DNA from: a virus
Direction: 5' to 3' (one strand)
DNA length: 37,213 nucleotides
Virus record (IMG/VR): IMGVR_UViG_3300037963_000269
Location: 1-37,213 of that record
Below, piece after piece: positions 10,526-28,232 of the stretch. The first letter of the stretch is position 1. Each line of letters opens with the position of its first letter. The translations under genes were made by a program, and so were the position numbers. The notes under the pieces are model-generated. The model had not been told where the DNA came from and made no database searches. It saw only the letters and a program-made list of their open reading frames with translations.

Positions 10526-10537
10526 AAGGGGGCACAT
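10526..10537 (+). promoter_or_regulatory. AAGGGGGCACAT motif, intergenic copy 1
   Basis: One of four intergenic copies of the 12-mer. It lies about 20 bases after the predicted start point of the promoter at 10472-10500 and directly before the leader hairpin. It could be a protein binding site on DNA or part of the leader RNA. See the finding on the GGGGGCA family. Confidence 0.6.
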
Positions 10538-10572
10538 AAGGCTGAGTGACTGATAAGCAGTTGTTCAGCCTT
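10538..10572 (+). promoter_or_regulatory. Leader hairpin, possible attenuator or small-RNA terminator
   Basis: AAGGCTGA (10538-10545) pairs perfectly with TCAGCCTT (10565-10572). Inside it ACTG pairs with CAGT (10549-10552 with 10558-10561) around a five-base loop, giving a two-tier stem. It is followed by TGGCTTTTAT, a short T-rich tract. With the promoter at 10472 it could yield an RNA of about 70 bases (10507 to about 10580), or control read-through into the gene at 10595. Confidence 0.55.
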
Positions 10573-10594
10573 TGGCTTTTATAGAGGGAGATAA

Positions 10595-10909
10595 ATGAAA
10601 CCTATCAACACGTTCTCAGAAGCAGAACTAAAAAAATATCTACAAGAATATAAGGTTAAACAAAACGCGGCGTGGCGTAGGTATAGGTCACGTGGGGAAA
10701 CAGATAAGCATGGTGCTCATCGAGAATACCTAGACGCGAAATCCATGATAACTAATATTAATTACAAAATTAAAAATGATACGTGGTTGTATAATGATTT
10801 ACCAGATGGTACTAGAATAGGCGGACGAAGAGTCACAGCATCAGGTAATCCAAATTTAATTGGTAAAATTATTGATGGCTTTGGGAGGGTAATAGATGAG
10901 ACTGCATAA
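10595..10909 (+). CDS. Hypothetical 104-residue basic protein
   Basis: Starts at ATG 10595 after GAGGGAG (10584-10590). It is charged, with a helical N-terminal half (SEAELKKYLQEYKVKQNAAWRRYRSRG, first 12 residues of this run are amphipathic) and a Gly-rich C-terminal part (GGRRVTASGNPN). It shows no catalytic motif that I recognise and no membrane segment. It is the first gene behind the promoter and hairpin leader, so it is the gene most directly exposed to any control there. It overlaps the next gene by 14 bases. Confidence 0.6.
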   Translation: MKPINTFSEAELKKYLQEYKVKQNAAWRRYRSRGETDKHGAHREYLDAKSMITNINYKIKNDTWLYNDLPDGTRIGGRRVTASGNPNLIGKIIDGFGRVIDETA

Positions 10910-11078
10910 ACATCCAGACTACCCAAATAAAACTAAGTATGATGGGCTAGCACATTATTTATACAGAACAAATAAACCTAGTACAGTAAGACTCCAACCA
11001 CTGTGGAAGAATCTTAAACTTAAAGATAAAGATTACTGGAGAGGTTTAGCACAGGTTTGGAAAGGACAGGACTTATGA
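10896..11078 (+). CDS. Hypothetical 60-residue basic protein
   Basis: A small basic protein rich in Lys, Tyr and Trp (WKNLKLKDKDYWRGLAQVWK near the C-terminus). GGGAGG (10882-10887) precedes ATG 10896 and the stop TGA overlaps the glutaredoxin ATG as ATGA (11075-11078). No family is recognised. Tight overlaps on both sides support it as a real gene in the operon. Confidence 0.55.
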   Translation: MRLHKHPDYPNKTKYDGLAHYLYRTNKPSTVRLQPLWKNLKLKDKDYWRGLAQVWKGQDL

Positions 11079-11350
11079 GATTAGAAGCAGAGATATATTC
11101 TAAACCTAACTGCCCTTACTGTGATATGGCTAAGTTGCGTCTAGTTTCATACAACCCAAAGATTTATATGTTAGATACTGATTATACGAGAGAGGACTTT
11201 TTTAAAAAGTTTCCAAATGCAAAAACATTCCCACAAATAATTTTAAATGGTGAGAAAATAGGTGGGTATCTTGAACTTGAAAAATGGTTTGACAAGTTTA
11301 TAATAAAACAGGAGAATAATAATGAAGGACATACTACAAGAAGCGGTTAA
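11075..11350 (+). CDS. Glutaredoxin
   Basis: A 91-residue thioredoxin-fold protein with CPYC at Cys13-Cys16, the cis-proline loop TFPQI (about residues 55-59) and IGGYLEL for glutathione binding. The start at 11075 (ATGA overlap with the previous stop) is preferred to an upstream ATG at 11057, because the first beta strand (LEAEIYSKP) follows at once. It would reduce the C-terminal cysteine pair of phage NrdA. Its C-terminal 9 residues overlap the next gene. Confidence 0.9.
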   Translation: MRLEAEIYSKPNCPYCDMAKLRLVSYNPKIYMLDTDYTREDFFKKFPNAKTFPQIILNGEKIGGYLELEKWFDKFIIKQENNNEGHTTRSG

Positions 11351-12506
11351 TGCTTTAGTACTAGCAAAGGGAAACATATCTGAAGCAGCTCGTGCTTTGA
11401 AGTTACCAAGACCCACACTTAATAGTCGATTAGAAAAAGCTAAACTAAATAATATTAAACCTACAGTTAAAGCTGCAGATACTGAAGCGGCTTTGACAGA
11501 ACAGAAACTTACGTATGAGTTACAGATAAAAGAACTCAAACAACAAGTAGAAGAACTAGCTAGAGAAAACATAACGGCAGATGCTATACGTAAGCATGTG
11601 TTTCAGCTAGGAGAATACAATGCCAAGCCACCGAAGTGGTTGCATAAATCTACACCTGCTAAAGGTGCACCAGGAATACCTACGTTATTCTTATCTGACT
11701 TTCATTGGGGAGAAGTAGTAAGTAAAACAAACGTAGATAATTTAAATCAATACAATAGAGATATAGGAAAGAAGAGAGTAGAGTTTACAATCAACTCTGC
11801 TATTGACTTATGTACCAATCACATGGTCAATGCTAAGTATCCTGGTATTATATTACCTCTTGGTGGGGATATGATTAGTGGTAGTATTCATGATGAGTTA
11901 ATAGAAACAAATGATGGAACAAGTATAGAACATGTACTTGAACTATTAGATATGTTAGCTTCTGGTATTACTAAACTAGCTGACACATTTGGTAATGTAT
12001 TTGTACCATGTGTAATAGGTAATCACAGTCGCATGTATAAACAATACAGACACAAGCAAGCTGTTGAAAGTAGCTTTGACTGGTTACTGTATAACATGTT
12101 AGAAAAATATTTCTCTAAAGATAAACGAGTATATGGTATTAGTTATCTGTTGACACATGGTGACAGACTAGGAGTTAAAGGTGGTACTGGTATAGTAGGA
12201 ATGCTTGGACCTATAGCACGAGGCGTGCAGAAAGTCAAGTCCGAATACGCTAACTTAAAGAAACCTGTGGACTATGTAATCATGGGTCACTTCCACCAAT
12301 ACATATCATTGAAAGATGCCATTGTTAATGGATCAATAAAAGGATATGATGAGTACGCTATGTCGGGTAGATTTGCATACGAAAGACCGCAACAAGCATT
12401 GTGGTTTACACACCCTGTATATGGTATTACATTTCAAGTACCTGTACAAAGTGTTGAAAAAGAAATTAAAAAACCAAAGGAATCGTGGGTATCATGGCGA
12501 AGTTAG
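11322..12506 (+). CDS. Fis-type HTH / calcineurin-like metallophosphoesterase fusion
   Basis: A 394-residue protein. Residues about 1-40 form a Fis-like helix-turn-helix (GNISEAARALKLPRPTLNSRL) followed by a coiled-coil linker (about 50-85). Residues about 115-380 are a metallophosphoesterase: SDFHW (Asp126, His128), GGD (Asp183), GNH (Asn234, His235), THGDR (His279) and GHFH (His323, His325) supply the usual two-metal site. Relatives include phage DNA exonuclease-like phosphoesterases; the HTH suggests the enzyme is brought to DNA. CAGGAG precedes ATG 11322. Whether it is a nuclease, a phosphatase or a cyclic-nucleotide-cleaving enzyme cannot be told from the sequence. Confidence 0.8.
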   Translation: MKDILQEAVNALVLAKGNISEAARALKLPRPTLNSRLEKAKLNNIKPTVKAADTEAALTEQKLTYELQIKELKQQVEELARENITADAIRKHVFQLGEYNAKPPKWLHKSTPAKGAPGIPTLFLSDFHWGEVVSKTNVDNLNQYNRDIGKKRVEFTINSAIDLCTNHMVNAKYPGIILPLGGDMISGSIHDELIETNDGTSIEHVLELLDMLASGITKLADTFGNVFVPCVIGNHSRMYKQYRHKQAVESSFDWLLYNMLEKYFSKDKRVYGISYLLTHGDRLGVKGGTGIVGMLGPIARGVQKVKSEYANLKKPVDYVIMGHFHQYISLKDAIVNGSIKGYDEYAMSGRFAYERPQQALWFTHPVYGITFQVPVQSVEKEIKKPKESWVSWRS

Positions 12507-12509
12507 GTC

Positions 12510-12538
12510 TTGCATGTGCCCCCTTTTTATGTTATACT
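12510..12538 (+). promoter_or_regulatory. Sigma70-type promoter with GGGGGCAC motif in the spacer
   Basis: TTGCAT (12510-12515) and TATACT (12533-12538) are 17 bases apart; the spacer begins with GTGCCCCC. Transcription would start near 12545, followed by AGGAG (12551-12555) and ATG 12561. The motif overlapping the spacer is where a repressor or activator would be expected to act. Confidence 0.6.
12514..12525 (-). promoter_or_regulatory. AAGGGGGCACAT motif, intergenic copy 2 (reverse)
   Basis: The 12-mer lies on the reverse strand between the -35 and -10 boxes of the promoter at 12510-12538. Its position inside a core promoter suggests transcription control. Confidence 0.6.
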
Positions 12539-12560
12539 AAAGGATTACTTAGGAGTACAT

Positions 12561-12689
12561 ATGGATAATGAAATTAAAAACCCTATGCCACAAGGTGTTG
12601 ACTTTGAATTAGGCATAGTAAAAATTGGCGGAGATGCTGTCAAAGTAGAAGAGCCGAAAGAAGATAACGATGGCAAAGAAAAAGCTTAA
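12561..12689 (+). CDS. 42-residue acidic hypothetical protein
   Basis: Starts at ATG 12561, five bases after AGGAG (12551-12555), directly behind the promoter at 12510. The product is small and acidic (KVEEPKEDNDGKEKA at the C-terminus), with no recognised motif. It overlaps the next gene by 20 bases. Confidence 0.55.
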   Translation: MDNEIKNPMPQGVDFELGIVKIGGDAVKVEEPKEDNDGKEKA

Positions 12690-12861
12690 CATAAAGAAAG
12701 CTATTAAAAAACCAGGATCACTTAGAAAAGCTCTTGGCATTAAAGAAGGTAAGACTATACCTAAAGCTAAGCTTGATGCGGCAGCAAAGAAACCTGGTAA
12801 GCTAGGACAGAAGGCTAGATTTGCACAAACTTTATCTAAACTTAGAAAAAAAAGAACATGA
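12670..12861 (+). CDS. 63-residue very basic protein
   Basis: A Lys/Arg-rich small protein with two PG-containing repeats (KKPGSLRKALGIKEG and KKPGKLGQKARFAQTL). I recall similar small proteins with the pattern PGxLRxxLGxKxGxxIPxxKL in marine phages and large DNA viruses, without known function. Its charge would suit nucleic acid binding or packaging. It overlaps the gene before by 20 bases and the gene after by 4 (ATGA). Confidence 0.65.
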   Translation: MAKKKLNIKKAIKKPGSLRKALGIKEGKTIPKAKLDAAAKKPGKLGQKARFAQTLSKLRKKRT

Positions 12862-13109
12862 TAAAAGTAGCATTTGCTATAATAATTACATCAATGCCAC
12901 ATTGGCCATCAGTAAAGTATCAAGGATATTTATATCCTGACATGGAAACGTGTTACCAATACACTGAAATGTATGTAGAACAATTTAGATCATACGCTGA
13001 TAGTCAAGGAGATTATGATGCACATTTTGATTCTTTTTGTTTTGAAACAGAATCATACCCAATAGAAGGATTTGAAGATATGAAAAGAGGAATAGGTTTT
13101 AATGCCTGA
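12858..13109 (+). CDS. 83-residue hypothetical protein
   Basis: Begins at an ATGA overlap with the preceding stop. The N-terminal 15 residues are hydrophobic (MIKVAFAIIITSMP), which could be a signal or membrane segment; the rest is acidic and aromatic with two cysteines (METCYQY and DSFCFE) that could form a disulphide if exported. No family is recognised. Confidence 0.55.
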   Translation: MIKVAFAIIITSMPHWPSVKYQGYLYPDMETCYQYTEMYVEQFRSYADSQGDYDAHFDSFCFETESYPIEGFEDMKRGIGFNA

Positions 13110-13203
13110 ATGTATAAAGTGTGGACATGAATGTCACTGTAGCAATAGCGGTGCTTGTTGTGGCGGTCAATGTGAATGTTGCAGCTGTGAACACAATGGC
13201 TAG
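13102..13203 (+). CDS. 33-residue cysteine-rich microprotein (metal-binding candidate)
   Basis: ATG 13102 overlaps the previous stop by 8 bases and its TAG (13201-13203) overlaps the next ATG by 8 bases; AGAGGAATAGG lies upstream. Ten of 33 residues are Cys (positions 4, 7, 11, 13, 19, 20, 24, 26, 27, 29), with CIKCGHECHC at the start and CECCSC at the end. The pattern fits a zinc-binding or metallothionein-like peptide. I recall small phage proteins with CGHxCHC, but no function. A longer frame from 13121 through this region (VAIAVLVVAVNVNV) looks like its shadow, produced by TGT and TGC codons read one base out. Confidence 0.6.
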   Translation: MPECIKCGHECHCSNSGACCGGQCECCSCEHNG

Positions 13204-13762: not shown

Positions 13763-13771
13763 GGAGTAAAT

Positions 13772-13915
13772 ATGAAACTTATAAAAGATTGTTGGTCATG
13801 GATTAAAGAATGGAATGACTGGGGAATGAAAGACTGGATTAAAGCTGGTATCATTTGTGCAGTTGTACTTATCGTAATCTATAATATGACAACAGGTGGA
13901 GCGCCTTCGGCGTAA
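13772..13915 (+). CDS. 47-residue single-pass membrane protein
   Basis: Starts at ATG 13772, after AAGGAG (13761-13766). The N-terminal half is amphipathic and Trp-rich (five Trp in the first 23 residues), followed by one membrane helix (AGIICAVVLIVIYNM). Placed just after the transglycosylase-like gene and before a terminator, it could be a holin or lysis accessory protein; this is position-based inference. Confidence 0.6.
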   Translation: MKLIKDCWSWIKEWNDWGMKDWIKAGIICAVVLIVIYNMTTGGAPSA

Positions 13916-13925
13916 CCAATTAATT

Positions 13926-13945: not shown

Positions 13946-13962
13946 TACATTTAGGAGATAAC

Positions 13963-14400: not shown

Positions 14401-17400
14401 TTATTCTAGACCTAAAGCTTTTCTTTGCTTAATGTTCTTACCAATGTTAAGTGGATCTTTAGTTAATCTTACATCACTATAGGTAGCTTCTAATGCTTGT
14501 TGCATTAGTGCGTTTAAGTCAGGGAATATCATATCAGATATGTCTTGCTTGTTATTCCATTTGAATAACTCTCTGGTTATATCATTTAATTCTTGTTGGC
14601 CTTTTAAAACCATTTTACTATTACCTATTTGATTACCTACGAATATATCTCTGTATGCATTTGTAATTTGCGCATTAACTTTTTGTCTTTTACTTTGATT
14701 TCTTGTAGCATTTTTTCTTTCTTGATATAATGCTTCTCTCGCTCTTTTATTTCTAGCAGAACCAAAACCTATACTCTGTAATATAGTTTCCATAGCACTA
14801 GCATCAGTGCTTAGTACACTACCATAATTAGTTTCAGTAAATCCTTTACCCAAACTTTGATCATATGCTTTGTACATGTTACGTATAAATAAAGGTGATG
14901 ATCTAAATGCTACATCTAATAATCCTTCGCCTTCTCTCATAGCTTGTGCACCTTCTCTTATTGATGTAATAAATACAGAACCAGGTGCCCCCGCAAAATC
15001 TGCCGCATTTCCGCCAGGCGTTAGTCCTAGCAGTGCCGCAATTGCTCTTATTTGTTGTGATCCTGGTACATTACCAAGTGACAATCTTCTTTGTACATCT
15101 ATATTTAATCCAGCTTCTATTACACCGTTCTCCATAGCATTAATTAATCCTGGCCCAAAGCCTGCTTCATACAACATTTCCCTCATAGCCGCTCTCATGT
15201 CTGTCTTAAGTCCCGTTCCTACGATAGGTGCCTTTTCAATCAGCCAGTTAGCTAACTCTTCTGCATCATCAGATCCTGGTAATCCAAAGAGACCGCCTGT
15301 TAGACCTAACATAACCATCATTCTAGCAAATACTTTTCTTCCTGCAGTTTTAGAACCAGGAGTTTTACCACCTGTTAATAATCTAAACATTAATGCAAAC
15401 ATCTGTCCAATATAAGTTTGGAATAATGCAGGCACAGCAAAAGCACCACGCATAATTTGTGGTCTATTTAGTTTACCATACACACCAAACGTATCATCAA
15501 TCATAGTTCGTGCAATTATTTGAGGGCTAATGATGCCACCATTGTCATTAATCATACCTTGTACTAGGTTATCGCCGTTATATATTTTATAAAATTCTTC
15601 TACAACTTTAGGATCTTGTCCCATTCTATAAGCTGCTATGTATGCAGTTAAACGAGAGATTGCTTCCATTGTATTGAATGGCCCGCCAATTACTTGTGTT
15701 TCAAAGTTACGGAATGCTGTGTCTCTATCAAATCCTGAACGTCCGGGTACTTGTCCTGTTTCTTGCAGTGCTTGACCTTGTCTAATATAATTAGGCATGT
15801 CTTCTTCTATTGCAGCTTTAACATCTTCAGGGACTTTAGTCCAATCTATAAATACATCGCCGTGTTGATTGTTAGTGTAAGAAAACATAGCTGTTGCTTC
15901 TTTAAATGCAATACCTAATTCTTTTGTAGCTCTTATACTTCCCCCCATCTGTGAAAGCATAGGTCCTGTAAATTGTACGTTAGACATTATCTGCAAGAAT
16001 GCAGATGATAAGTTGCCCCCAAGATACCACCAAAATCCTAGTCGTCTTAGTTGTGCAAACTCTTGATATGGGTCTTGGCTATAGTTCCACCACTTATCAA
16101 AACCAATTTTTAATTGTTTGTATTTAATTGGGTCAGTAGCAATAGCATCTTCTAATACTTTCTTTCTCTCATCTGCTTCATTCATAAACCTACTACGCGC
16201 CGCATATCTAGAACCTAAAAAACCAAACTGACTTGCAGCTCTACCAAAATCAGGATTGTATCCTGGTACACCACCTACTCTTTGACGTGGTTGCATGAAT
16301 TGATCAAAGCCAATTATATTTTTATTGTTTTTAATTAATTCTCTAAGTTCCCCTTCTAGTTCTGCAAACACTTCTTGTTTAGGATTACTTAAGTATTGAG
16401 CAACATCTAGCATATCAATAGAACCTTTTTCTAACTTCTCTTTAATATTAAGTTGACTTATTTCTTGTACGTTTCTAACTTCTACGCCAGTGTCTTCTCT
16501 CCAATCACTAATAAATTTAATTCTTGCAGCGTCTGCTTCTTTCTTAGTTTCAAAATGTTCACGTCTAATTAAGTAAGCAGGATTTAATTTAACAAACTTA
16601 CCTTTAACTTTCATAGCCCCTTGCTCTGTTGCCGTTGCGTCTAAGTATTGAGGTTCATTATTATTAACTATAGTTACTACATAATCACCAAATCTAGATA
16701 AAGGTGCATAGTCACTTTGTTTAAACTCTTCAAACTTTGTCATCTGACTATGTAGTTTAATTAACCCTAGGTCTGCTGTGGCTTTTGGTTGCTCAGCTAT
16801 AGGGTCAACACCTAATATACTTTGTATTTCTTTTATAGCACTAGGAGTTAAAGCAGATCTATCTACAAACTCTGCATCTCTATTCTCTAAGATTCTTCTA
16901 AGTGCACTAATAATGCCAGTCATTTGTTGATACGTTATATTTTCTAACTCTTCATCAGTATTTAAATTTGACAAGTCAGGCATGTATACACTAGATAAAG
17001 CTTTACCTTCATGAAACTTTAATGTTTCTACTGCACTTTTAAGTTGTTCCAAATAACCACCAGCTATCATTCCTTTTATTTGTTCTTTAGCTAAAAATGT
17101 TTCTGCTACTTGATACTCAACATATGCTTGTGCTAAATCTCCTTCTAATATAATTAACTCACCAGCTGTCATTGGCAAACCTGTAGGACTATTTCTTGAA
17201 TCAAAATCCATTGGCATTCTAAATATAATTCTACCATCTTGGTCAGGTCTAAATGTTCTGTTAGGGTAGTATTGTGATATAACTTGTGCTCTATATAATG
17301 CTTCACGCATAGCAGGATCTTCTATCATCTTACTATATCTAAATAAAATATTTTGATAAGTGTTCTGTATTTGTTTAGCTTTAGTATTCATATTCTCAAT

Positions 17401-20400
17401 ACTACGCCATACTCTTTCAAACAGCGGATTATCTTTAGCCCATGTTCTAACAAAGCCAGCGATACGATGCATCAAACTCATCTTAGGCATATCCATAGTG
17501 GTATTATCTTTACTATAAGTTTTTTTATTTTCCTCCATAGCTTTACCCATTTTAGCATTGAGTGCTCTCTTCTGCTGTCTGTTCATAGGAATATATTCAT
17601 CCATAGGTTTTTCACCTGGCACAGGTTGATATTGATTTGCCGCCATCATGTTAGGTTGACGTATACCATATGCACCGTCATTAAATACAGATTTAAATTG
17701 TTGTGGTTTAAATATAATGTATGAATCAGTAGGTGGTTCTTCAATCATTAACATGATTTCTTCCACAGTAGGTTCTTTAACTGTCGGATCAATAACACCT
17801 GTCGCTTGTGCTGCTGCGTAAGCTACAGCTTTTCTACGTATAGACTTGTGTTTGTATTCTCCTTCGTTTAAGTATACTACACCATCATAACCTTTCTTTT
17901 GTATAAGTTCTTTTATTTCTTGGAAGCTTTCATCAAGGCCAGTGTATAAACCCATCTGCCTTAACTGTTCTACTTGTGATTCATTTTCAGTTTCAAACTT
18001 TTCTATTCTATCCATAGCTTTATTAAATTCATTTTCTGTAATGATATTTTTTCTACGTAGATAACCTAATACTGTAGCAGGATCCCATGTACCAAAGTCA
18101 GGTAAACGTAAAGGATTTTTTATATTAGCAAAACCTCTGAATACATAGTAGTCAGATAGTTGTGCCCCCTTATTCTTAACTAGTGTATCTATTACTGATT
18201 GGTCTGGTGTAAAGTGAAAACCAAAATCATTTGTTCTTTCCATATCAAATACTTCGAACGGCGTTCTCTCTGTCATTTGTCTAGTATCTAATGTCGCATG
18301 CATTACAATCAAGGGGGCACCCTTGTCATCTACTACTTGACTTAGTCTGCCACCACTGTTGAACCATTTAAAGAACTGTGCTGTGTTTGTTATTGTAGGT
18401 TGTTGTGTAAATAATGCACGAGTACGCGGGGAGAACCCAGAAATTTCCTCACCACTCCATTTGTTTGTAACTATTATATCCTTTGCATTGTCACCTGTTA
18501 AATATATTTCTGATTCACGTTGCATACTGTCATAACGAGCGCCTACCAAACCAAGATCAATTGCGTTAAATATTGCAGCTGATGTATCAAATCTGTTTCC
18601 TGTCAATGCATTACCTAATGCAATTAAATATTGTTTTAATCTATTAAATGCTCTAGCTATAAAACTCCCAGTTTGGTATCTACCTGTCATGTAGTCAGCA
18701 AATGCGTCAGATATAGCTTCTTCTACTTGTTCATTATAACTTAATTCAGGATGTCTTTCTTTTATTTTATATTGTTTTATCCATCTATTTTCAGCTGCTC
18801 TTGTTAAATCATACCATTCATTTCTTGTAAAGAATCCTTCATTTCTAAGTAAGTGCATTACCTCATGATGTAATACATAGTTAAGTGAGTCAGTTCTGTT
18901 TAAGTTAGGTCTAAGTTCTGGTATTGCATTGTATGCTACTTCTACACCACGTGACCCTAGTATATATTTACCAGCAAGTGCAACACCATCTGATTCTAAG
19001 AATGGTTTTAAATCTACACGTATGTCTAGATTCATTTTATTTATGATGTCTTTTAAAACTTGATAAACTTTAGGGGCATTGTCAGCAAAGTCATTTGTTA
19101 TTCTAGGTTGGTTATAATTTTTTGCCCATAGTTCATACTTACGTTGATAACTATTTTCTTGTTCAAAAGAAAAGTTTCTAGCTTTCTTTGCTATTCTTCC
19201 TAGTCTTGGATCTCTTGTTGTAATACTATTCCACTCGGTAGATATAGTTGGCTCTTCATTAAACGTAGCAAGTGTTTCATTAAATTCTATTCTAGCTTTA
19301 TCGATGTTATTAATATGAGTTTCATACATAACAATTTGTTCAGTAACTGCTTCTGTCTGTGGGCCTTGTTTTAATTTAGCTATTTCTTTTTCTGACGCTG
19401 ATCTAGAAGCGGGGCTATATGCTCCAATAATTCTGCCTCTATCCATAATAATATGAGATCGTCTATCAATTCTGTCAATTTGTTTTTGTATAGCGTCGGC
19501 TTTTCTAAAATTATTATTAAATAACTCTGCACGCTTTTGTCTTTTTAATTGTGTCTTTAAAGTTTTTTCTTCAGCAGTAATCCACTTCCAACCTCTGTTA
19601 TCTAATAGATGTAATAACTCTCTTAATCTTCTTATTCTTTCTCCAACTGGTTTATCATAAATGCCTTCACCTAATTCAGATACTCTTTCAGCTGCAGTTA
19701 GTGGTTCAACTATGGTAGAACCAGTTTTTACTTTTTCAGTACGTTCTCTTGTACCTTTTGTTTCATCTTCAAATCTAATATTATCATTTAATATTTTGTC
19801 TAATCTTTTTCTACCTTCAGTCTTAGCACTTCTACCAACTATTTTTGTATTGTTTTTTAAATCTTCAATATATTGCTGACCAAACGGGCCTCTAAATCCT
19901 AATTCATTTAACTTATCATATTCACTATCAGATATATAGTTTGTATTATCTTGTGCTAATGATTGTATTTGTCTATATCTTTCTTGAGGCCAAGCTCTTT
20001 GTTCTACAGCAGATCTTAAATCTGCGTTATCAACGTCATTAAATTGTGAATACGCACCATCAACTTCACCTTCATTCTCTAATGCTTCTTCTACTGTAAG
20101 TTCTTTACCATCTTTGTAGTTATCATCTTCGTAGAACATTTGGAATCGTTCTTGTCTAGGATTTTTATTTTGTTGCCATAAACTATATTCTTGTCTAATT
20201 ATATTTTGCTGTTCTCTTTGAGCTGTTATATCATTTACAGTATCATTTATGTATTGTTCTTTTTGTTCAGAAAAGTTTTCATCAAAGTTTTTATCTGTAT
20301 CTTTATCTACCCATCCTCTTCGTTTTAATTCTTTTTTATTTAATGCGCTAGCTTCTTGTACTTCTTTTGAATCTAAGTCTACGTCATCTGCAGTATCTTG

Positions 20401-21972
20401 ATTGTAAATAAATCCTGCACTATTATTAAACTTGTTTTGATTTATAGTACCATCATTAATTTTTAATATTGATTTAGCTCTAGCTTTTGGAACAAATAAA
20501 TCACCTTGCCCACTTACACCTTCTAATAAAACAAACTGTTCTCCATTAACTGTAGTATCCCCTGCAATTACAAAGATAGGAAATGCGGAATTGTTTGGGT
20601 CATCCTGATTAAAACTTTCACCTGTAGGTTGTGCTTGTGGCCCGACAACAGTTTCATGTGGCGCCCCTGTTACAGTTACAGTATCACCAATTATGAACCC
20701 ATCATATAAATCTGGACTAGCTGTAATGTCTGTATTAATATTTGGTAATTCAATTCTTTGACCTCCAGCATCTACATATAAATCTACTTGAGGACCAACA
20801 CGTAATGCTTGCACTGTACCACCCACAGTACCAAATGACATACCACCAGCTGCACCAGCAGCCGCTGCTTCACCTATTTGTTTCCAAAAATCTGGGCTAG
20901 AATATAGTTCTGATAAAGATCTACCTGCTTGTAATTCTTGTCCAGTAGATGTTAATGTTTCTTGTATTGATTCTGCTGTTGCCTCACCAGCCATTGTACT
21001 GCTGAGACCTTTACCAAAAGCTTTTAACCTTTGTCCTTTATTTGCAGCTTTTATATTTTGTTTTATGTTTAATGGTTTACCTTTTAAGAAATCACCTAAG
21101 GTTTCAGTTACTTTTCTTTTACCAACTTTGTTAATCATTTGAGTTAGGAATACACTACCAGCACCAAATGCACTTTCCGCCGCCGCGTATGGTATACCTA
21201 AAGCTAATGCAATACCTGCATTAGGATCATCTGTTTCTTCTAATTGTTGATTGTATATGTCTCCTATAGCCATACCATAAGCTGCCGCAGTCAAACCTGC
21301 ACCACCAAATGAAGTCATGTTTGCTAAAGCTCTAGCACCTATGTTACCTTTTACATTACCTAACAAACCATAAGACATAGCTTGTCTAAATGCCCCCATA
21401 CCTGCTTGTCTTGCAACTAATCCACTAGCAATTGCACCTGCACCTACACCACCTGATACTAAACCTGCTAATACAATTGGTAAAGTTGTAACAGCACCCT
21501 CACCCATCTTACCGCCAAGCCATTCAAGGAATGCACTAAACTCTTGTTCACTTTCAAATACTTGTTCTAAAGAACTTATTCTAGGTTTGATTTTCCCATC
21601 AGCATCTTTACGCCATGCGTGTGCTTGTTGGTCTAATTGATATTGTCTTACTGCTTCAACTGCTTCTTTTTGTAATTCTTCTGCACCAAATACATCATAC
21701 ATCGCAGCCATACCTGCGCCCCAAAATTGTTTTAATGTATCAACGGAAGACTTTGCACCTGCTACAAATGCATTGTCATTAAGATTATCTTCTTCTATTA
21801 AGGATACTGGAGTTAAGCCGTACTTGTAAAGCCAGCCTTGTTCGGCCATTGACTTTTCAAATTGCTCGCTTTTTAAATGAGCACGTATTTCATCGTCAGT
21901 TGTATCAGCACTGAACTGTACTCGAGGCGCTCCTTCGGCCTCAAATTTTATATATCTTACGTCGTTCGCCAT
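14401..21972 (-). CDS. Giant polyvalent internal virion (ejection) protein with zincin and ADP-ribosyltransferase-like domains
   Basis: A 2523-residue protein. Residues about 155-400 are Gly/Ala-rich and hydrophobic (LPIVLAGLVSGGVGAGAIASG), typical of membrane-active parts of ejected phage proteins. HHEVMH (His1036, Glu1037, His1040) with Glu1084/1085 downstream is a zincin metallopeptidase signature. Residues about 1210-1430 match the ADP-ribosyltransferase-like module of phage polyvalent proteins: VMHATLD (His1225), FGFHFTPD, ANIKNPLRL, KGYDGVVYL and YIIFKPQQFKSVF. The rest has long charged helices and hydrophobic patches near 1960-2250. It probably enters the host with the DNA, as T7 gp16 and N4 vRNAP do, and could act on host targets. 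It is the last gene of the leftward structural operon. Domain calls are from motif recognition. Confidence 0.7.
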   Translation of the reverse strand: MANDVRYIKFEAEGAPRVQFSADTTDDEIRAHLKSEQFEKSMAEQGWLYKYGLTPVSLIEEDNLNDNAFVAGAKSSVDTLKQFWGAGMAAMYDVFGAEELQKEAVEAVRQYQLDQQAHAWRKDADGKIKPRISSLEQVFESEQEFSAFLEWLGGKMGEGAVTTLPIVLAGLVSGGVGAGAIASGLVARQAGMGAFRQAMSYGLLGNVKGNIGARALANMTSFGGAGLTAAAYGMAIGDIYNQQLEETDDPNAGIALALGIPYAAAESAFGAGSVFLTQMINKVGKRKVTETLGDFLKGKPLNIKQNIKAANKGQRLKAFGKGLSSTMAGEATAESIQETLTSTGQELQAGRSLSELYSSPDFWKQIGEAAAAGAAGGMSFGTVGGTVQALRVGPQVDLYVDAGGQRIELPNINTDITASPDLYDGFIIGDTVTVTGAPHETVVGPQAQPTGESFNQDDPNNSAFPIFVIAGDTTVNGEQFVLLEGVSGQGDLFVPKARAKSILKINDGTINQNKFNNSAGFIYNQDTADDVDLDSKEVQEASALNKKELKRRGWVDKDTDKNFDENFSEQKEQYINDTVNDITAQREQQNIIRQEYSLWQQNKNPRQERFQMFYEDDNYKDGKELTVEEALENEGEVDGAYSQFNDVDNADLRSAVEQRAWPQERYRQIQSLAQDNTNYISDSEYDKLNELGFRGPFGQQYIEDLKNNTKIVGRSAKTEGRKRLDKILNDNIRFEDETKGTRERTEKVKTGSTIVEPLTAAERVSELGEGIYDKPVGERIRRLRELLHLLDNRGWKWITAEEKTLKTQLKRQKRAELFNNNFRKADAIQKQIDRIDRRSHIIMDRGRIIGAYSPASRSASEKEIAKLKQGPQTEAVTEQIVMYETHINNIDKARIEFNETLATFNEEPTISTEWNSITTRDPRLGRIAKKARNFSFEQENSYQRKYELWAKNYNQPRITNDFADNAPKVYQVLKDIINKMNLDIRVDLKPFLESDGVALAGKYILGSRGVEVAYNAIPELRPNLNRTDSLNYVLHHEVMHLLRNEGFFTRNEWYDLTRAAENRWIKQYKIKERHPELSYNEQVEEAISDAFADYMTGRYQTGSFIARAFNRLKQYLIALGNALTGNRFDTSAAIFNAIDLGLVGARYDSMQRESEIYLTGDNAKDIIVTNKWSGEEISGFSPRTRALFTQQPTITNTAQFFKWFNSGGRLSQVVDDKGAPLIVMHATLDTRQMTERTPFEVFDMERTNDFGFHFTPDQSVIDTLVKNKGAQLSDYYVFRGFANIKNPLRLPDFGTWDPATVLGYLRRKNIITENEFNKAMDRIEKFETENESQVEQLRQMGLYTGLDESFQEIKELIQKKGYDGVVYLNEGEYKHKSIRRKAVAYAAAQATGVIDPTVKEPTVEEIMLMIEEPPTDSYIIFKPQQFKSVFNDGAYGIRQPNMMAANQYQPVPGEKPMDEYIPMNRQQKRALNAKMGKAMEENKKTYSKDNTTMDMPKMSLMHRIAGFVRTWAKDNPLFERVWRSIENMNTKAKQIQNTYQNILFRYSKMIEDPAMREALYRAQVISQYYPNRTFRPDQDGRIIFRMPMDFDSRNSPTGLPMTAGELIILEGDLAQAYVEYQVAETFLAKEQIKGMIAGGYLEQLKSAVETLKFHEGKALSSVYMPDLSNLNTDEELENITYQQMTGIISALRRILENRDAEFVDRSALTPSAIKEIQSILGVDPIAEQPKATADLGLIKLHSQMTKFEEFKQSDYAPLSRFGDYVVTIVNNNEPQYLDATATEQGAMKVKGKFVKLNPAYLIRREHFETKKEADAARIKFISDWREDTGVEVRNVQEISQLNIKEKLEKGSIDMLDVAQYLSNPKQEVFAELEGELRELIKNNKNIIGFDQFMQPRQRVGGVPGYNPDFGRAASQFGFLGSRYAARSRFMNEADERKKVLEDAIATDPIKYKQLKIGFDKWWNYSQDPYQEFAQLRRLGFWWYLGGNLSSAFLQIMSNVQFTGPMLSQMGGSIRATKELGIAFKEATAMFSYTNNQHGDVFIDWTKVPEDVKAAIEEDMPNYIRQGQALQETGQVPGRSGFDRDTAFRNFETQVIGGPFNTMEAISRLTAYIAAYRMGQDPKVVEEFYKIYNGDNLVQGMINDNGGIISPQIIARTMIDDTFGVYGKLNRPQIMRGAFAVPALFQTYIGQMFALMFRLLTGGKTPGSKTAGRKVFARMMVMLGLTGGLFGLPGSDDAEELANWLIEKAPIVGTGLKTDMRAAMREMLYEAGFGPGLINAMENGVIEAGLNIDVQRRLSLGNVPGSQQIRAIAALLGLTPGGNAADFAGAPGSVFITSIREGAQAMREGEGLLDVAFRSSPLFIRNMYKAYDQSLGKGFTETNYGSVLSTDASAMETILQSIGFGSARNKRAREALYQERKNATRNQSKRQKVNAQITNAYRDIFVGNQIGNSKMVLKGQQELNDITRELFKWNNKQDISDMIFPDLNALMQQALEATYSDVRLTKDPLNIGKNIKQRKALGLE

Positions 21973-22004: not shown

Positions 22005-23081
22005 TTAGGATTTTACTGTAAATTCTTTATCTACTACAATAGTATTTTCATCAGTTGACATTGTTCCACCTGAACCCCCATCAGTGGATAAATAAATTGC
22101 ATTTGCTTTAATTGCATCCATTAGTAATTTTGCTGTGTCAGGGTCAGTTGATTCTAATGCTCTAGCATATGTAAACAAATCTTTAATTGATCCAGCTTTA
22201 GCAGAAGTTAAATCTTTAACTGCAATTTGTTTTAAAATTTTTGCGTACTCTGCTGCATAATCATCCATTGTTATATCACCTGTTGCAATCTTAGCTCTTA
22301 CATAAGCATCAGCTTCTTTTTGCGCGTTAGTTAAATACTGAGCAGGGTTAGTTAACTTATCAGTTTCTGCTAAAGTTTTCATTGCGTCAAGCTGTGCTTG
22401 TTGTCTAGCAATATTAGTTGCTTCTGCTAGTTTTAAATTTTCTCTAACATTCTTTTGTGCTCTAGCAAATCTACTACCATAAGCATCTGCACCTACTCGT
22501 GTTTCTAACATAGCGTCTGCTATACCGCCTAGTATTGCATCACGTTTATCAGCATCATTAAACAGGTTAGCCATTCTTTGTTTAAGTGTAAGTTCTTCTA
22601 CAGTTTCTTCATCAGTTCTAGTATCCATAACTTCCATTACTGCCTTAGCATCTGCAGTACCACCTCTACCACTAGTGTCTTTAGTGTAAGGTTCTCTTGG
22701 ATTTGGAACTAAGTTAACACTGCCTTCTCTCATAAATTTTTTATAACCTTCAGGGTTATTTACTTTCATGTACTCTAATACTTCTGGTGATGTTTTAGAA
22801 TATTGATATGCCCCCATTGTTTTACCCATAGCGTTAGGATACATTGTCATCATTTCCTGCATGCTATAGCTAGGAAGATTCATACCAGCTCTGCCGCCAA
22901 CTTCTTTGTTAGCTTTATTTGCTTCTTTGAGAACAGTGTTAAAATTATCGTCTCTATAACCTTGTAAGTAAGGTCTAAGAGTTTTTACATTCATACCACC
23001 GATAGCTTCAGAAAAACTAAGATCGTCTAAATCTACTGGTTCATATCCTTCTACAAGTTTTCCGTTTTCGTATAGTGCCAT
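22005..23081 (-). CDS. Internal virion protein, 358 residues
   Basis: A charged protein rich in Ala, Lys, Asp and Glu with long predicted helices (residues about 160-330). No cysteine, no membrane segment and no enzyme motif is visible. It lies directly upstream of the giant ejection protein and 4 bases after the 293-residue protein, so the three probably form the internal core or ejectosome. It could instead be a scaffold-like protein. AAAGGTAAGG in the 32-base gap below it is the Shine-Dalgarno of the giant gene. Confidence 0.5.
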   Translation of the reverse strand: MALYENGKLVEGYEPVDLDDLSFSEAIGGMNVKTLRPYLQGYRDDNFNTVLKEANKANKEVGGRAGMNLPSYSMQEMMTMYPNAMGKTMGAYQYSKTSPEVLEYMKVNNPEGYKKFMREGSVNLVPNPREPYTKDTSGRGGTADAKAVMEVMDTRTDEETVEELTLKQRMANLFNDADKRDAILGGIADAMLETRVGADAYGSRFARAQKNVRENLKLAEATNIARQQAQLDAMKTLAETDKLTNPAQYLTNAQKEADAYVRAKIATGDITMDDYAAEYAKILKQIAVKDLTSAKAGSIKDLFTYARALESTDPDTAKLLMDAIKANAIYLSTDGGSGGTMSTDENTIVVDKEFTVKS

Positions 23082-23085
23082 GTTA

Positions 23086-23967
23086 TTACCCGAATGGTTT
23101 CCAACCTAAGCCACCAGCTATGTTAGCTGCTGTACCTGCATAACCTAATGCTTGTTCAAAGAAGCTAGGTCTAGAGATTGCTTGAGTTGTAGTTGCTGTT
23201 GCTGTGTTAGGGTCACCCGCTAGTATTCCTTGTAGGAAGTTAAGCTGTGACTTAGGATACTCACGTTGAGCAATAAAGTCTTGGTAAGCTATGTCAAGCG
23301 CTCTTTGTTGATCGTCTCTCATTAACTGTCCAATACCTAATTGATTTTGTACGTCAGCAAAACCTAAGTTCTGTTGTTGCGCCGCTAGTGTGCCTTGTCC
23401 AATTGCCCCCTTGAGCCCTTGCTCTTGTGCAAACTTAGCTGTATCTAGTCCTTGTGTATATGCGTCCGCTTGTGCTTTAGCATACAAGTTACCAATACCT
23501 TCTGTTAAATTCTTTTTTCTTTCTGCTTCTTGTATTGCAAATCTTGTTGAGTCTAACCCACCTGACTGAGCTGCTTGTGCTGCTAGTCCTTGTTGTTCTA
23601 TTGCAGATTGATCTCTCATTTTTTGTGCCGCAATGTCCGCAACTTGTGTCATGTACGGATTCATGTAGCCAGTTATCTGTGCTTGCGTTGGCCCGCCTGT
23701 CGCACCTACTGCATCTTTTTGAGCTTGAGCTGCTTGTAATGTACTAATACCTGCCATGCCTTGTGATTGTAACATAGCATTAAGTTGTGTCTGATTAAGT
23801 CCTGCAATACGAGGATCAGTATAAGGTATGTAATCTTCTTGTGCTACATCTAATGCAGCTCCAACCATGTTAGCGCCAGCTTTCTGTAAATAATCAGGAA
23901 GTTGTGTTGCTTCAGTAGGCAACATTTCTGGAGAACCTGGTTTAAATAAAAAATCGAATAGTGCCAT
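23086..23967 (-). CDS. Internal virion protein, 293 residues, Ala/Gln-rich helical
   Basis: Begins MALFDFLFKPGS and contains GYMNPYMTQV (about 105-114), then SGGLDSTRFAIQEAE and GIGNLYAKAQADAY, with a Gly/Ala-rich C-terminus (GYAGTAANIAGGLGW). I recall this combination (YMNPY, S-x-RFAI-x-E, IG-x-LY) in marine podovirus internal or tail proteins. Gln- and Ala-rich helices between suit a DNA-ejection protein. The specific role is unknown. It starts 3 bases after the stop of the upstream gene. Confidence 0.55.
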   Translation of the reverse strand: MALFDFLFKPGSPEMLPTEATQLPDYLQKAGANMVGAALDVAQEDYIPYTDPRIAGLNQTQLNAMLQSQGMAGISTLQAAQAQKDAVGATGGPTQAQITGYMNPYMTQVADIAAQKMRDQSAIEQQGLAAQAAQSGGLDSTRFAIQEAERKKNLTEGIGNLYAKAQADAYTQGLDTAKFAQEQGLKGAIGQGTLAAQQQNLGFADVQNQLGIGQLMRDDQQRALDIAYQDFIAQREYPKSQLNFLQGILAGDPNTATATTTQAISRPSFFEQALGYAGTAANIAGGLGWKPFG

Positions 23968-23970
23968 AAT

Positions 23971-25731
23971 TTAACCGTATAATTCTAAAGGGTCTAAGCC
24001 TAAAGCCTTTCTTCTTCTTCGTTGATATTCACTAAATGGTTCTAGTGTTATTCCTTCTCCAGTCGTACCTTGTGTCATATACTTATATATGTCTTCTTGT
24101 GTACGTGGAGTTGTTGTAAACTGCGCAACATCTTTAGTTGGATCAGTTTTAAATCTTCTTGATAGTGGTACATCTTTTTCTACATCTCCTGTACGTGGCC
24201 CTTTGTAAGGCATAGTCATATCATCTGCTTCTACTATTTGTTCTGTAACATCTTCTTCGTCTATAACAACAGGTCTACTAAATCCACTTGGTCGATTCTT
24301 ACTTCTATCATCTTGTGTCTTTTGTCTTGCATCAAATATTGCGTTGTTATATTTCTTAGCATCTTTATATTCTTGTGAGTTTCTATCCATGCCACTTGTG
24401 TCAATAGTTTTATTCATAGCAAAATCAGCTAATCCGCCTGATGTTTGTGCTTCACCAAATGCTTTAAAGTATTTATCTGGTGCATATTTTTTAAGAGTTT
24501 CTAATACTGAAGCACCATCACCTGTATCTAATGCACGCAGTGCTTTCGTTAAACCTTGTAATGTCATTGAACCATCTTCTCTTTCCAAACCTGCGCCTAT
24601 GCCTTTAATTGTTGTCATTAAAGGACTCATTGCTTCTTTAGGTGATACTTTCACTCTTTCAAATTCATTTAATAATTTAAACATGTCTTCTTGTGTTTTC
24701 TCAGGTAAATCTTCTATCGCTTTTATCTCAGGCCCTATTAGACCTAATTCTTTTAATTTCTTTATAACTGAATCTTTTGCTTTTGAACCTTCATCAAGCA
24801 AACCTTCAAATAAACTTGGTTGTTGATTTAATAATTTAGTTGTTTTATCAAGTCTTTTTTGTAAGTTCTTTAATCTTTCTTTGTCACCTTTACCTTCAGC
24901 AATTAATTTTTTTTCTTCTTCTATTTGTTTTTCTAACATGCTTTTGCTTTTCATGTTCTTTTCATTTTCTTCTCTTTCTTTCGCATCTAACTTAGATAAC
25001 AAATTACCTTCACTCTTATCGTCTTTATCTCTTACACCTGTACGCACATCGCTTACAATGTCTGCAACACTTTGACCTGTTTGTGCAAATGGATTAGTTT
25101 CTTGTTGTTCTTCCATTTCTAATTGTTTTTGAACAGCTTGACCAGCTTGAGTTCCAAAAAATTCTTTTACTTGTTGTTGCTGTTCTTGAGTGCCTCCGCC
25201 TTGAGATACTGTATCAAATACACTTTGTGATGTTCCTTGATCTCCTGAAGTTGAAGTCATTGGTTTATCTGCTGCTACATAATCTAATGAGTCGTATGAT
25301 GGTACATCTTCTGGCCCTTTATGTGGTGTACCTGGTTTTAATAAACCTAGTATAGCTTTCTCTTCATCGGTAATATATGCTAGTGATGTTTCAGGAACAC
25401 CAGGTGCCGTACGTAAATTACGTGGCAACATGAGTATGCCCCCTTCATCATCAGCAAAATTGTTTGGATACATATTACGTTGTGCTGATTCCTGTTGTGA
25501 TACTACTCTTTGAGCTTCTTTCATAAAATCTGGTAATGGTTCTTTTGGTGTAGGTAGTTCATATATACCCGCAACACCTTTGTTTGCTTCTTTTCTTAAT
25601 GCTTTAGACAGCATAGCCGCAGCACCCACGGGCGCTTCATTAGGTTTTACCACCATATTTCCGCCTTGTACTGGTCCTGCTAATTGCATGTCTTCGGACA
25701 TTTGCCCGAGCATTTCTACACCTGTTGCCAT
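23971..25731 (-). CDS. Large hydrophilic internal virion protein, 586 residues
   Basis: Residues about 85-120 (NNFADDEGGILMLPRNLR then TSLAYITDEE) resemble a conserved segment of marine phage internal proteins. Residues about 180-260 are Gln- and Glu-rich, and about 255-305 form a coiled coil (EKQIEEEKKLIAEGKGDKE). The remainder is charged. There is no enzyme motif. It follows the gap 25732-25779, which has a candidate promoter and a GGGGGCAC site, so it may head a separate transcript for the internal protein set (this gene, 23086, 22005, 14401). Confidence 0.55.
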   Translation of the reverse strand: MATGVEMLGQMSEDMQLAGPVQGGNMVVKPNEAPVGAAAMLSKALRKEANKGVAGIYELPTPKEPLPDFMKEAQRVVSQQESAQRNMYPNNFADDEGGILMLPRNLRTAPGVPETSLAYITDEEKAILGLLKPGTPHKGPEDVPSYDSLDYVAADKPMTSTSGDQGTSQSVFDTVSQGGGTQEQQQQVKEFFGTQAGQAVQKQLEMEEQQETNPFAQTGQSVADIVSDVRTGVRDKDDKSEGNLLSKLDAKEREENEKNMKSKSMLEKQIEEEKKLIAEGKGDKERLKNLQKRLDKTTKLLNQQPSLFEGLLDEGSKAKDSVIKKLKELGLIGPEIKAIEDLPEKTQEDMFKLLNEFERVKVSPKEAMSPLMTTIKGIGAGLEREDGSMTLQGLTKALRALDTGDGASVLETLKKYAPDKYFKAFGEAQTSGGLADFAMNKTIDTSGMDRNSQEYKDAKKYNNAIFDARQKTQDDRSKNRPSGFSRPVVIDEEDVTEQIVEADDMTMPYKGPRTGDVEKDVPLSRRFKTDPTKDVAQFTTTPRTQEDIYKYMTQGTTGEGITLEPFSEYQRRRRKALGLDPLELYG

Positions 25732-25739
25732 ATTTATCT

Positions 25740-25768
25740 ATTATATCCTATTATTTGGTGAAAGTAAA
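25740..25768 (-). promoter_or_regulatory. Candidate sigma70-type promoter before the internal protein genes
   Basis: On the reverse strand TTTACT (25763-25768) and TATAAT (25740-25745) are 17 bases apart. The start point would be only 2-3 bases before ATG 25731, giving an almost leaderless mRNA, which makes it less certain. The GGGGGCAC site abuts the -35 box. Confidence 0.35.
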
Positions 25769-25778
25769 GGGGGCACAT
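25767..25778 (+). promoter_or_regulatory. AAGGGGGCACAT motif, intergenic copy 3
   Basis: The 12-mer fills the 48-base gap between the structural genes at 25731 and 25780 and its first two bases are the end of the candidate -35 box of the leftward promoter. It is oriented against local transcription. Confidence 0.6.
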
Positions 25779-25779
25779 A

Positions 25780-26148
25780 TTATACTCCCCTCAATTCATC
25801 ACTGATTTCCATGATAGAAGCATAAGCCCTTATAGGCTGTACGTTTGCTTGTATCTTTAATGCGTCTGCTGATTCTAAAACAAGCGGCCCCATATCTGTA
25901 GCATTAACTGTTGTTGCTGCTGCAAAGTCACTTGTGCCAAATACTCTTATTGTATCAGTAGAACTAGCGCTTGAATCCAAAAATCTAATGTATAGAGTTC
26001 CTGCTCCGCCAGTAGTATTAAATATTGTTAATGTCTTAATAATAGCTTGATACTTTATTAAGCTTGTACTTGTAGGGCAAGTATAGATAGTTTCATCAGT
26101 TCCTGTGCTTGTAACTGATACTACTTTATTTTTATATTCTATAGCCAT
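25780..26148 (-). CDS. Small virion/tail protein, 122 residues
   Basis: A beta-rich protein rich in Thr, Ser and Ala, with GAGTLYIRFLDSSAS in the middle and LVLESADALKIQA near the C-terminus. Its layout resembles the product of 35122-35478 (GDVLKAKSDTANSLNVWVS), so they may share a fold found in small phage tail or decoration proteins. The start at 26148 is chosen over 26163 because its ATG shares a base with the upstream stop (TAATG), the common junction in this operon. Confidence 0.5.
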   Translation of the reverse strand: MAIEYKNKVVSVTSTGTDETIYTCPTSTSLIKYQAIIKTLTIFNTTGGAGTLYIRFLDSSASSTDTIRVFGTSDFAAATTVNATDMGPLVLESADALKIQANVQPIRAYASIMEISDELRGV

Positions 26149-26336
26149 TAACTTAAAAACCACTCCATTGATTGTTGTTCGTCTTTGTTTGCAATTCGTA
26201 CAGGTGTTTCAGTTGTACTTGCGTCACGTAAACGTAAGATGTTTATTAATGCATCATAAGTTCTTGCACTAATTGTATCGTTGTTTCTTTCAGTATATGA
26301 AAGTTCTGGATAAACTCCTTTAGTATATAGTCCCAT
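26148..26336 (-). CDS. 62-residue structural-operon protein
   Basis: A short protein (MGLYTKGVYPEL...SARTYDALINILRLRD...MEWFLS). The start at 26336 shares one base with the stop of the nozzle-like gene (TAATG); an in-frame ATG at 26387 would make a longer overlap and is less likely. The same kind of junction occurs at its end. No family is recognised; a small tail accessory protein is plausible. Confidence 0.5.
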   Translation of the reverse strand: MGLYTKGVYPELSYTERNNDTISARTYDALINILRLRDASTTETPVRIANKDEQQSMEWFLS

Positions 26337-28222
26337 TATCTCATTCCATCTTGTTGAGCTTGCATACGCCATGTACCTAATCGCCAACCTATATCTGCAG
26401 TATCGCTGTAGTATTTAGATTGGAATGATCTGCCTCTAGCTCTCATGTTTAATTTACCTTTTGTTTCTGCTAAAGTAAAAGGCCCTTTAGTTGTTTCTGT
26501 TGTGTTAGGGTATAGTTTTGATTTCATTTGAAACTTAATTTCTTTTGTACCTGTACCTGTAAAAGTTGTATCAGGAATAATTTTATTTACAAAGTAAATA
26601 CTGTTACCTGCTTGATCGCCTGTAAAGAAACCTGTTTCTATAAAAGCTGTCATTGCACTTGATTCGTCATTAAAACCATTCTCTTGATTAAATACAAAAC
26701 CACTACCATCTGTTGCCATTGGGTATGTAAATATACCAGCGTCAGCCCAAGCTGTTCTAGATAAAGAACCTATTGACCATGTGTTATCTATGTAGTTGTA
26801 TATAACATACTTATCTACTTCTGTTTGTCCTGCAGACGGGTAGAACCACCATATTTCATTAAACTCAATTATCTCTGCACTGAATACTTTTTCTCTTTGA
26901 GTTTGGTTAAAGCTATCAAATACATGATTTAGTACTGGACACTTTAATGTTTTAACTGCACCATCATATGCATAGAAGTTATCAACTCCCATCCAGAATG
27001 AACCGCCCTCAATCATAGCTGGTGAGTTTTTAGATATAGTACCTGACGCTTCACCTAACTGTTGGAAAGAGAAAGTAAATGGAGGACCAGTAAACTGCAT
27101 ACTGTACATATCTACGTCTGTCCATAACACCATTTGACCACGGGCTTTTGCCGCAGCTTCGATGTTAGTTCCTGTACCAAGTCTAGTTGCCCCTGCTGTA
27201 TTTGTTAGTTGTGTATTCCAATCAGATAAACTTTCTTGTGAACACCATCTAACTGTTAGTCTATCATATGTAGATGAACCTTCAGGTTCTGAACCAAATA
27301 CAACAACGTGTCTGTCTGGTGTAGATACTAATACAACTCCAACTTTATCTGGAATAGCTGAAGCATCTCCACCTACACTTGTGACATATTGTCCTAGAGT
27401 TGATCCTCTGTATGTAGAAGGTGCGGCGATAAATGCACTTATATCAAAGTAATATAATGTATCTTCTCCACCACCTATACTAGCGAGTATGTCTTCACCC
27501 CATGCGTCCATTGTCCATACACGTGGTGATAATACAACTCCTGATGCTGATCTGGCTGTGCCCCATGTGCTGCTCGACCAAAGCCCTGCGCCAAATCCGA
27601 AACCTGTTAAACCGTCAGACGGTCCGTTACTTACTAAATATCTAAGTACAACTGCTCCACCTCCTGTTTGTGACCCAGAAGAAGCAGTACCTGAAATACT
27701 AGCTCCTGTGCCTGACACAGCAGTTAAAGTGTATTGAGTTGCACTTACATATGTAGCAAGATATTCTCCTGCTGTAATAGTCACACCGTCAAATGTTCCC
27801 GATGCAATTGAAGATATAACAATACGAGAAGGAGGACTTGTTTGTGCTATTGTGTTACCTGCGTCGGTAACTGTAATTGTAGAAGAACCAGCTGATCCTG
27901 TTGTAAAAGGATTTGTTAAATTTACATTAGCTGTTTTATAAGGAGTGACATCTTGAATGACGCCACCTTGTTCACAGTAAACGTGAGTACTTGTACCGAA
28001 GAGTACCATCTTACGGCCATCTTTATCTCTATGAGGGAAAATGTTTCTAGGCACACCAGACATTGCGCTAGTGCTTGAATCTCTTTTCTTCCAGCCACCG
28101 ATCTTTTCTGCTTGATCGTACTTAAACCTTACCTTATCTGCGTTGGTAAATCTAAGCCCTGCCTGGTAATCTGTTATTTCAGTAACTACTCCTGCAGGGG
28201 CTGTTAAGTCTACTAATGGCAT
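26336..28222 (-). CDS. Tail nozzle / DNA stabilisation-like protein
   Basis: A 628-residue beta-rich protein. The opening (PAGVVTEITDYQAGLRF, then NADKVRFKYDQAEKIGGW) matches the N-terminal pattern of phage stabilisation or tail nozzle proteins of short-tailed phages (P22 gp10-like), in which residues near the start read PPG...T.Y...GRW...VRF...P.KIGGW. The middle has propeller-like repeats (RHVVVFGSEP, GQMVLWTDVDMY, GSFWMGVDNFYAYDG). It would form the lower tail tube that fibres attach to, which fits its place next to the fibre array. The start codon is joined to an AAGGGGGCACAT site, and the gap to the upstream gene is 15 bases. Confidence 0.55.
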   Translation of the reverse strand: MPLVDLTAPAGVVTEITDYQAGLRFTNADKVRFKYDQAEKIGGWKKRDSSTSAMSGVPRNIFPHRDKDGRKMVLFGTSTHVYCEQGGVIQDVTPYKTANVNLTNPFTTGSAGSSTITVTDAGNTIAQTSPPSRIVISSIASGTFDGVTITAGEYLATYVSATQYTLTAVSGTGASISGTASSGSQTGGGAVVLRYLVSNGPSDGLTGFGFGAGLWSSSTWGTARSASGVVLSPRVWTMDAWGEDILASIGGGEDTLYYFDISAFIAAPSTYRGSTLGQYVTSVGGDASAIPDKVGVVLVSTPDRHVVVFGSEPEGSSTYDRLTVRWCSQESLSDWNTQLTNTAGATRLGTGTNIEAAAKARGQMVLWTDVDMYSMQFTGPPFTFSFQQLGEASGTISKNSPAMIEGGSFWMGVDNFYAYDGAVKTLKCPVLNHVFDSFNQTQREKVFSAEIIEFNEIWWFYPSAGQTEVDKYVIYNYIDNTWSIGSLSRTAWADAGIFTYPMATDGSGFVFNQENGFNDESSAMTAFIETGFFTGDQAGNSIYFVNKIIPDTTFTGTGTKEIKFQMKSKLYPNTTETTKGPFTLAETKGKLNMRARGRSFQSKYYSDTADIGWRLGTWRMQAQQDGMR

Positions 28223-28232
28223 GTGCCCCCTT
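28221..28232 (-). promoter_or_regulatory. AAGGGGGCACAT motif, intergenic copy 4, at a start codon
   Basis: The final AT of the 12-mer is the first two bases of the ATG of the nozzle-like gene (28220-28222), so the motif occupies the Shine-Dalgarno position. The run of G could pair weakly with 16S rRNA. No other good Shine-Dalgarno is seen for this gene. Confidence 0.6.

Follow-up and report, generated by a model that had tools for sequence, protein, structure and literature searches.

Genome context and gene content

The window, meaning the whole 37,213-nucleotide stretch analyzed here, is a 37-kb contig of an uncultured phage from IMG/VR with 37% GC. It encodes a DNA polymerase, a primase-like protein, a Sak4 protein, nrdA and nrdB, an SbcD-like exonuclease, and tail-fibre genes, together with a DNA-ejection-protein-like gene and a 2523-amino acid protein distantly related to proteins of Pseudomonas podoviruses. 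The DNA polymerase A sequence is divided into two parts (1684–2787 and 3335–4882), and a uracil-DNA-glycosylase-like (UDG) domain precedes its 3'-5' exonuclease part. Several adjacent genes between 30050 and 34668 match phrog_15750, forming an array of paralogous tail-fibre-like genes. No Rfam match was found within the window. The nearest cultured phages share merely 30%–42% (approximately) protein identity for the proteins tested, and the clade of relatives that we fetched for comparison shares 60%–97% identity for the same proteins.

A short word enriched across the clade

The window has 21 copies of the heptamer GGGGGCA compared with 0.7 expected, 17 of them in genes and four in intergenic DNA, and AAGGGGGCAC occurs 10 times compared with 0.04 expected. 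All 14 contigs of this uncultured phage clade are strongly enriched, with 12–32 copies of GGGGGCA per contig distributed over both strands. In each of the 16 relative records, the heptamer recurs frequently on either strand, compared with 0–3 occurrences per strand for the reversed word, and the G4-5CA(C) family ranked first by de novo word count in 14 out of 14 contigs. Pooled copies gave an asymmetric 10-bp consensus, A[A/G]GGGGGCAC, as the conserved unit, with GGGGCA as its core and with flexibility at the first G and last C. Distant relatives and other phages did not show the motif, no similar dispersed word was obvious in the distant relatives, and the literature searched gave no report of GGGGGCA in connection with phages.

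The base following GGGGGCA varied from phage to phage, giving CAG in G003 and CAC in G005, G007, and G008. Coding and intergenic copies agreed on this base in all four of these contigs, and the preference was mixed in G001 and G009. Since the following base tends to shift alike in coding and intergenic copies, a co-evolving trans factor is suggested.

Selection on copies inside genes

Gene-internal copies in the window are found in the UDG/3'-5' exonuclease gene (1810–1816, plus strand), the DNA polymerase gene (3574–3580, minus; 4465–4471, plus), nrdA (7131–7137, plus; 7653–7659, minus), and nrdB (9916–9922, plus), the last of these being kept in 39 out of 39 relatives. The gene for the 2523-amino acid protein contains five, at 14986–14992, 16014–16020, 18163–18169, and 21391–21397 on the minus strand and at 18313–18319 on the plus strand. 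The remaining six are all on the minus strand, in gene 22005–23081 (22809–22815), the DNA-ejection-protein-like gene (23404–23410), gene 23971–25731 (25437–25443), a tail-fibre-like gene (31577–31583), gene 31904–32587 (32521–32527), and gene 35492–35980 (35743–35749).

Compared with synonymous-codon shuffles, coding copies were in excess in both orientations, with 191 versus 16 in the sense direction (12-fold) and 74 versus 2 in the antisense direction (34-fold). Because the antisense excess over the shuffles is at least as strong, we interpret the raw sense bias as a codon effect. At positions where relatives encode identical amino acids, the motif was kept in 45% of cases versus 13% for GC-matched 7-mers at 60%–70% protein identity, and in 87% versus 28% at 80%–90% protein identity. 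Retention was thus around three times that of GC-matched words, with turnover persisting at larger distance. GGGGGCA is selected as DNA, inside genes too. A chance, codon, or composition artefact would account largely for the AT that follows some copies (see below), but for the core GGGGGCA it is refuted by the synonymous shuffles, the reversed-word counts, conservation, and synteny alike. A phage RNA-polymerase promoter or an mRNA signal was also rejected, given that copies are on both strands and lie mostly within genes, and that antisense enrichment after codon correction is at least equal to that in the sense direction.

In the window, the spacing of copies was more even than expected at random (P=0.009), and mean gaps across contigs were 1.1–3.2 kb. 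Pooled contigs showed even spacing matched by fewer than 1 in 3000 simulations, and five divergent contigs gave P=0.002; we note that these pooled figures overstate independence, as related contigs share some sites. When each strand was considered separately, even spacing was found only in one subclade (G004–G008). Regular spacing on both strands, along with a primase-like protein in all 14 motif-bearing contigs, would fit a replication signal in which a phage primase uses the word as a template site spaced for lagging-strand priming. Known primase sites are 3–5 nt long, which counts against this reading, and neither the restriction of per-strand evenness to one subclade nor the fixed positions at promoters described below is explained by it, so we regard a primase site as very improbable.

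Intergenic copies at promoters and a start codon

Intergenic copies were denser than those in genes, comprising 60 of the approximately 324 classified copies in about 5% of the DNA. This siting may partly reflect freedom from codon constraint. The conserved intergenic copies occupy four syntenic places in relatives, represented in the window by one copy each.

The first, an instance of AAGGGGGCACAT at 10526–10537 on the plus strand, lies downstream of nrdB between a promoter and a terminator, and 40 out of 40 relatives keep GGGGGCA there. The promoter is of the sigma70 type with an extended -10 (TTGACA-N17-TATTAT, 10472–10500, plus) and is syntenic in relatives, and an intrinsic terminator-like hairpin with a T-rich tail (10538–10582, plus) directly follows the motif. 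The same order is usual at this locus in relatives, where a TTGACA- or TTGACT-type promoter precedes the motif and a terminator-like hairpin follows, with a variable distance between the motif and the -10 box. The hairpin sequence turns over, yet nearly all distinct leaders retain the stem. Folding of 10507–10585 gave z = -4.7, within the range of -3.9 to -7.2 for the four leaders folded. Transcription of the module as a whole (10472–10582) would give either a short RNA or an attenuated leader. Terminator-like structures were also counted near all copies, but the G-run itself biases this count too much for use.

The second copy (12514–12525, minus) is located after the exonuclease gene, within the spacer of a TTGCAT-N17-TATACT promoter (12510–12538, plus). 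Copies of this type were found in the 17-bp spacer in approximately 51 out of 59 aligned clade loci, and the exceptions have a shortened or altered form. In many relatives (L099, L100, L106, and others), the motif at this place is also the 3' arm of a GGGGGC..GCCCCC hairpin followed by a T-run. This structure overlaps the promoter, such that terminator and promoter are superimposed; the window lacks the 5' arm.

The third copy (25767–25778, plus) reads TGCCCCC on the minus strand, where it adjoins the -35 box of a TTTACT-N17-TATAAT promoter (25740–25768, minus) upstream of gene 23971–25731. TGCCCCC was placed against the -35 box at a fixed distance to TATAAT in 21 out of 21 relatives. The -10 box of this promoter stops 8 nt short of the ATG in gene 23971–25731, so its transcript would be leaderless or nearly so. 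The fourth copy (28221–28232, minus) occupies the Shine-Dalgarno position of virion gene 26336–28222, as it does in 19 out of 21 relatives.

The motif does not accompany promoters in general, as 109 out of 140 strong intergenic promoters were without it. Where it is linked to a promoter, it is conserved far better than most gene-internal copies, and a fixed position at promoters or a start codon in nearly every relative is the behaviour expected of operators. The difference in conservation also bears on whether the copies are sites for a DNA-organising protein acting in condensation, packaging, or partition, with bridging sites 1–3 kb apart. Such a role would suit the even gaps and the indifference to strand and gene content; we consider it quite improbable, as no such protein was recognised and it gives no reason for promoter-linked copies to be so much better kept.

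The 12-mer and its final two bases

An earlier note on this DNA had singled out the four intergenic copies as an identical 12-mer, AAGGGGGCACAT, and this observation was borne out. Exactly four copies were found, at 10526 (plus), 12514 (minus), 25767 (plus), and 28221 (minus), compared with 0.01 expected by shuffling. The six other copies of AAGGGGGCAC are all in genes and continue with GG, GT, AG, AA, CC, and AG, none with AT. The contexts were likewise as described, namely a promoter spacer (12514), a -35 box (25767), a position downstream of a promoter (10526), and a position before an ATG (28221).

The note's further proposal, a phage regulon operator distinct from the wider heptamer family, held only in part. 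The siting agrees with it, since nearly all relatives keep these copies at fixed places by promoters or a start codon, but the claimed distinctness does not stand, as intergenic and coding copies have the same core and similar flanks. At the corresponding intergenic places, GGGGGCA was near-universal in relatives, and the AT tail was present in 13 of 57 intergenic copies across 13 relatives; it followed 13 of 246 coding copies. The start codon supplies the AT at 28221 with its first two bases, and the -35 box TTGCAT supplies the AT at 12514 with its last two. No information was present at position 10 in the intergenic consensus, nor at the T of the 12-mer in the pooled consensus. Because the AT comes from the start codon and the -35 box at these two sites and is present in a minority of copies in relatives, we interpret the 12-mer as the clade motif extended by its surroundings. 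The final AT mostly belongs to the context and not to the motif, and the 12-mer is ruled out as a class of its own.

Host genomes and candidate binding proteins

AAGGGGGCAC was not enriched in 289 alphaproteobacterial and 143 gammaproteobacterial genomes (432 in total), so this sample, which may lack the host, gave no sign of a host-wide word. The result is relevant to the main rival explanation, in which GGGGGCA is a Chi-like signal for recombination or nuclease control, with a helicase-nuclease or exonuclease of host or phage changing its activity at the motif. Dense, even copies on both strands would protect or recombine phage DNA, and the promoter positions would be incidental free space. 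Chi in phages is a short, G-rich, asymmetric word that is over-represented both inside and outside genes, and phages can over-represent the Chi of their host (PMC3784561). GGGGGCA resembles it as a short, strict, G-rich, asymmetric word within coding DNA, and the spread over both strands, evenly spaced, mostly in genes, and in G004–G008 even per strand, would be expected of such a signal.

However, Chi is a host word, enriched about 2-fold in the host and 2- to 5-fold in phages at about 0.2 per kb (PMC3784561), whereas GGGGGCA is far denser and enriched 10- to 30-fold or more, and the bacteria sampled, which may not include the host, show no enrichment. This phage also has its own Sak4 annealing protein and exonucleases. 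Furthermore, a fixed promoter register at 21 out of 21 loci and a promoter-motif-terminator arrangement at 40 out of 40 are not predicted by a Chi-like role. Taken with these points, we consider a Chi-like signal rather unlikely.

The lack of enrichment in the sampled bacterial genomes, together with the co-shifting following base, favours but does not prove a phage-encoded factor. Two candidate binders were present in all 14 motif-bearing contigs. One is the SbcD-like exonuclease/phosphoesterase with an N-terminal Fis-type helix-turn-helix (HTH) (11322–12506, plus), which the earlier note had put forward. It is possible but weak as a candidate, because distant relatives that bear the HTH are without the dispersed motif and because the window and G001 share an identical recognition helix, yet their base-8 preferences differ. 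The window copy of this exonuclease is missing 14 residues that its relatives have, even a relative at 97% identity, which could be an in-frame deletion or an assembly fault. The other candidate is a 104-amino acid protein family (2790–3104, plus), detected in 13 contigs by ORF clustering and as an ORF in the window; protein-family and solved-structure searches gave no convincing match for it. A methylation target of the phage Dcm-type cytosine methyltransferase is disfavoured, as the gene (8412–9422, between nrdA and nrdB) is absent from the shared families of the clade.

Proposed role and relation to known systems

Overall, we favour the explanation that GGGGGCA copies are dispersed sites of a phage DNA-binding protein that serve as operators at promoters, to which we give a probability of roughly 0.45. 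We infer protein binding, phage encoding of the binder, and regulation of transcription. A[A/G]GGGGGCAC would be recognised, as an asymmetric site, by a sequence-specific DNA-binding protein that the clade most likely encodes. Occupancy in a promoter spacer, at a -35 box, or past a start point before a terminator could control transcription initiation or early elongation, and binding of the same protein to the evenly spread gene-internal copies may have a genome-wide effect, as stoperator-like roadblocks or in DNA organisation.

The promoter register argues for transcription control, and gene-internal copies, spread evenly and irrespective of strand, point to a genome-wide role. Several features count against a regulator. 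Most strong intergenic promoters are without the motif, about 80% of copies are in genes, where codons account for any preference in orientation, and the even spacing looks less like a set of operators than like sites that act genome-wide. A classic regulator also usually leaves a tail of weak sites, but one-mismatch variants of GGGGCA are not enriched, a strictness that would also be expected of a Chi-like word. An improbable further reading is a lineage-specific self tag, in which a sequence-specific nuclease or DNA-organising protein of the phage, such as the HTH-phosphoesterase, reads evenly spaced GGGGGCA words for discrimination of phage from host DNA or for recombination control, and the words also act as operators at key promoters.

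Known phage systems resemble parts of this pattern. The start-associated sequences of Cluster K mycobacteriophages are asymmetric repeats placed immediately ahead of start codons, the position that the 28221 copy occupies; unlike these, only one of the four intergenic window copies is at a start codon, and most GGGGGCA copies are in genes. The stoperators of Cluster A mycobacteriophages (L5, Bxb1, TipsytheTRex) are 20–30 short asymmetric sites per genome, some in promoters, that are bound by a monomeric phage repressor and whose sequence drifts among related phages (PMC6550527, PMC9283540). GGGGGCA is similar in its 12–32 short asymmetric sites per contig, some overlapping promoters (the 12514, 25767, and 10526 types). 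However, the orientation of stoperators matches that of transcription, and their location is mainly short intergenic gaps, whereas intergenic GGGGGCA copies are split 2:2 between strands in the window, antisense coding copies are at least as enriched as sense copies after codon correction, and most copies are gene-internal. Stoperator phages are temperate and have an immunity repressor; here, no repressor or integrase was found among the genes scanned, which are a subset of those in a complete genome. In the Bacillus prophage SPbeta, the phage-specific repeated element SPBRE is found at several promoters and bound by the master regulator MrpR (PMC10516654). SPBRE is a 15-bp element described at promoter regions and is not known to have dispersed coding copies, in contrast to the mostly coding GGGGGCA. 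GGGGGCA would work much as a stoperator or SPBRE array does, but we do not assign it to these systems, because orientation and intergenic location, two defining stoperator features, do not apply.

These patterns amount to a strong cis code, shared throughout a clade of phages that has no close relatives in culture. If its binder is found, the code would extend dispersed-operator control beyond the known examples or would represent a phage-specific word for Chi-like function or self-recognition.
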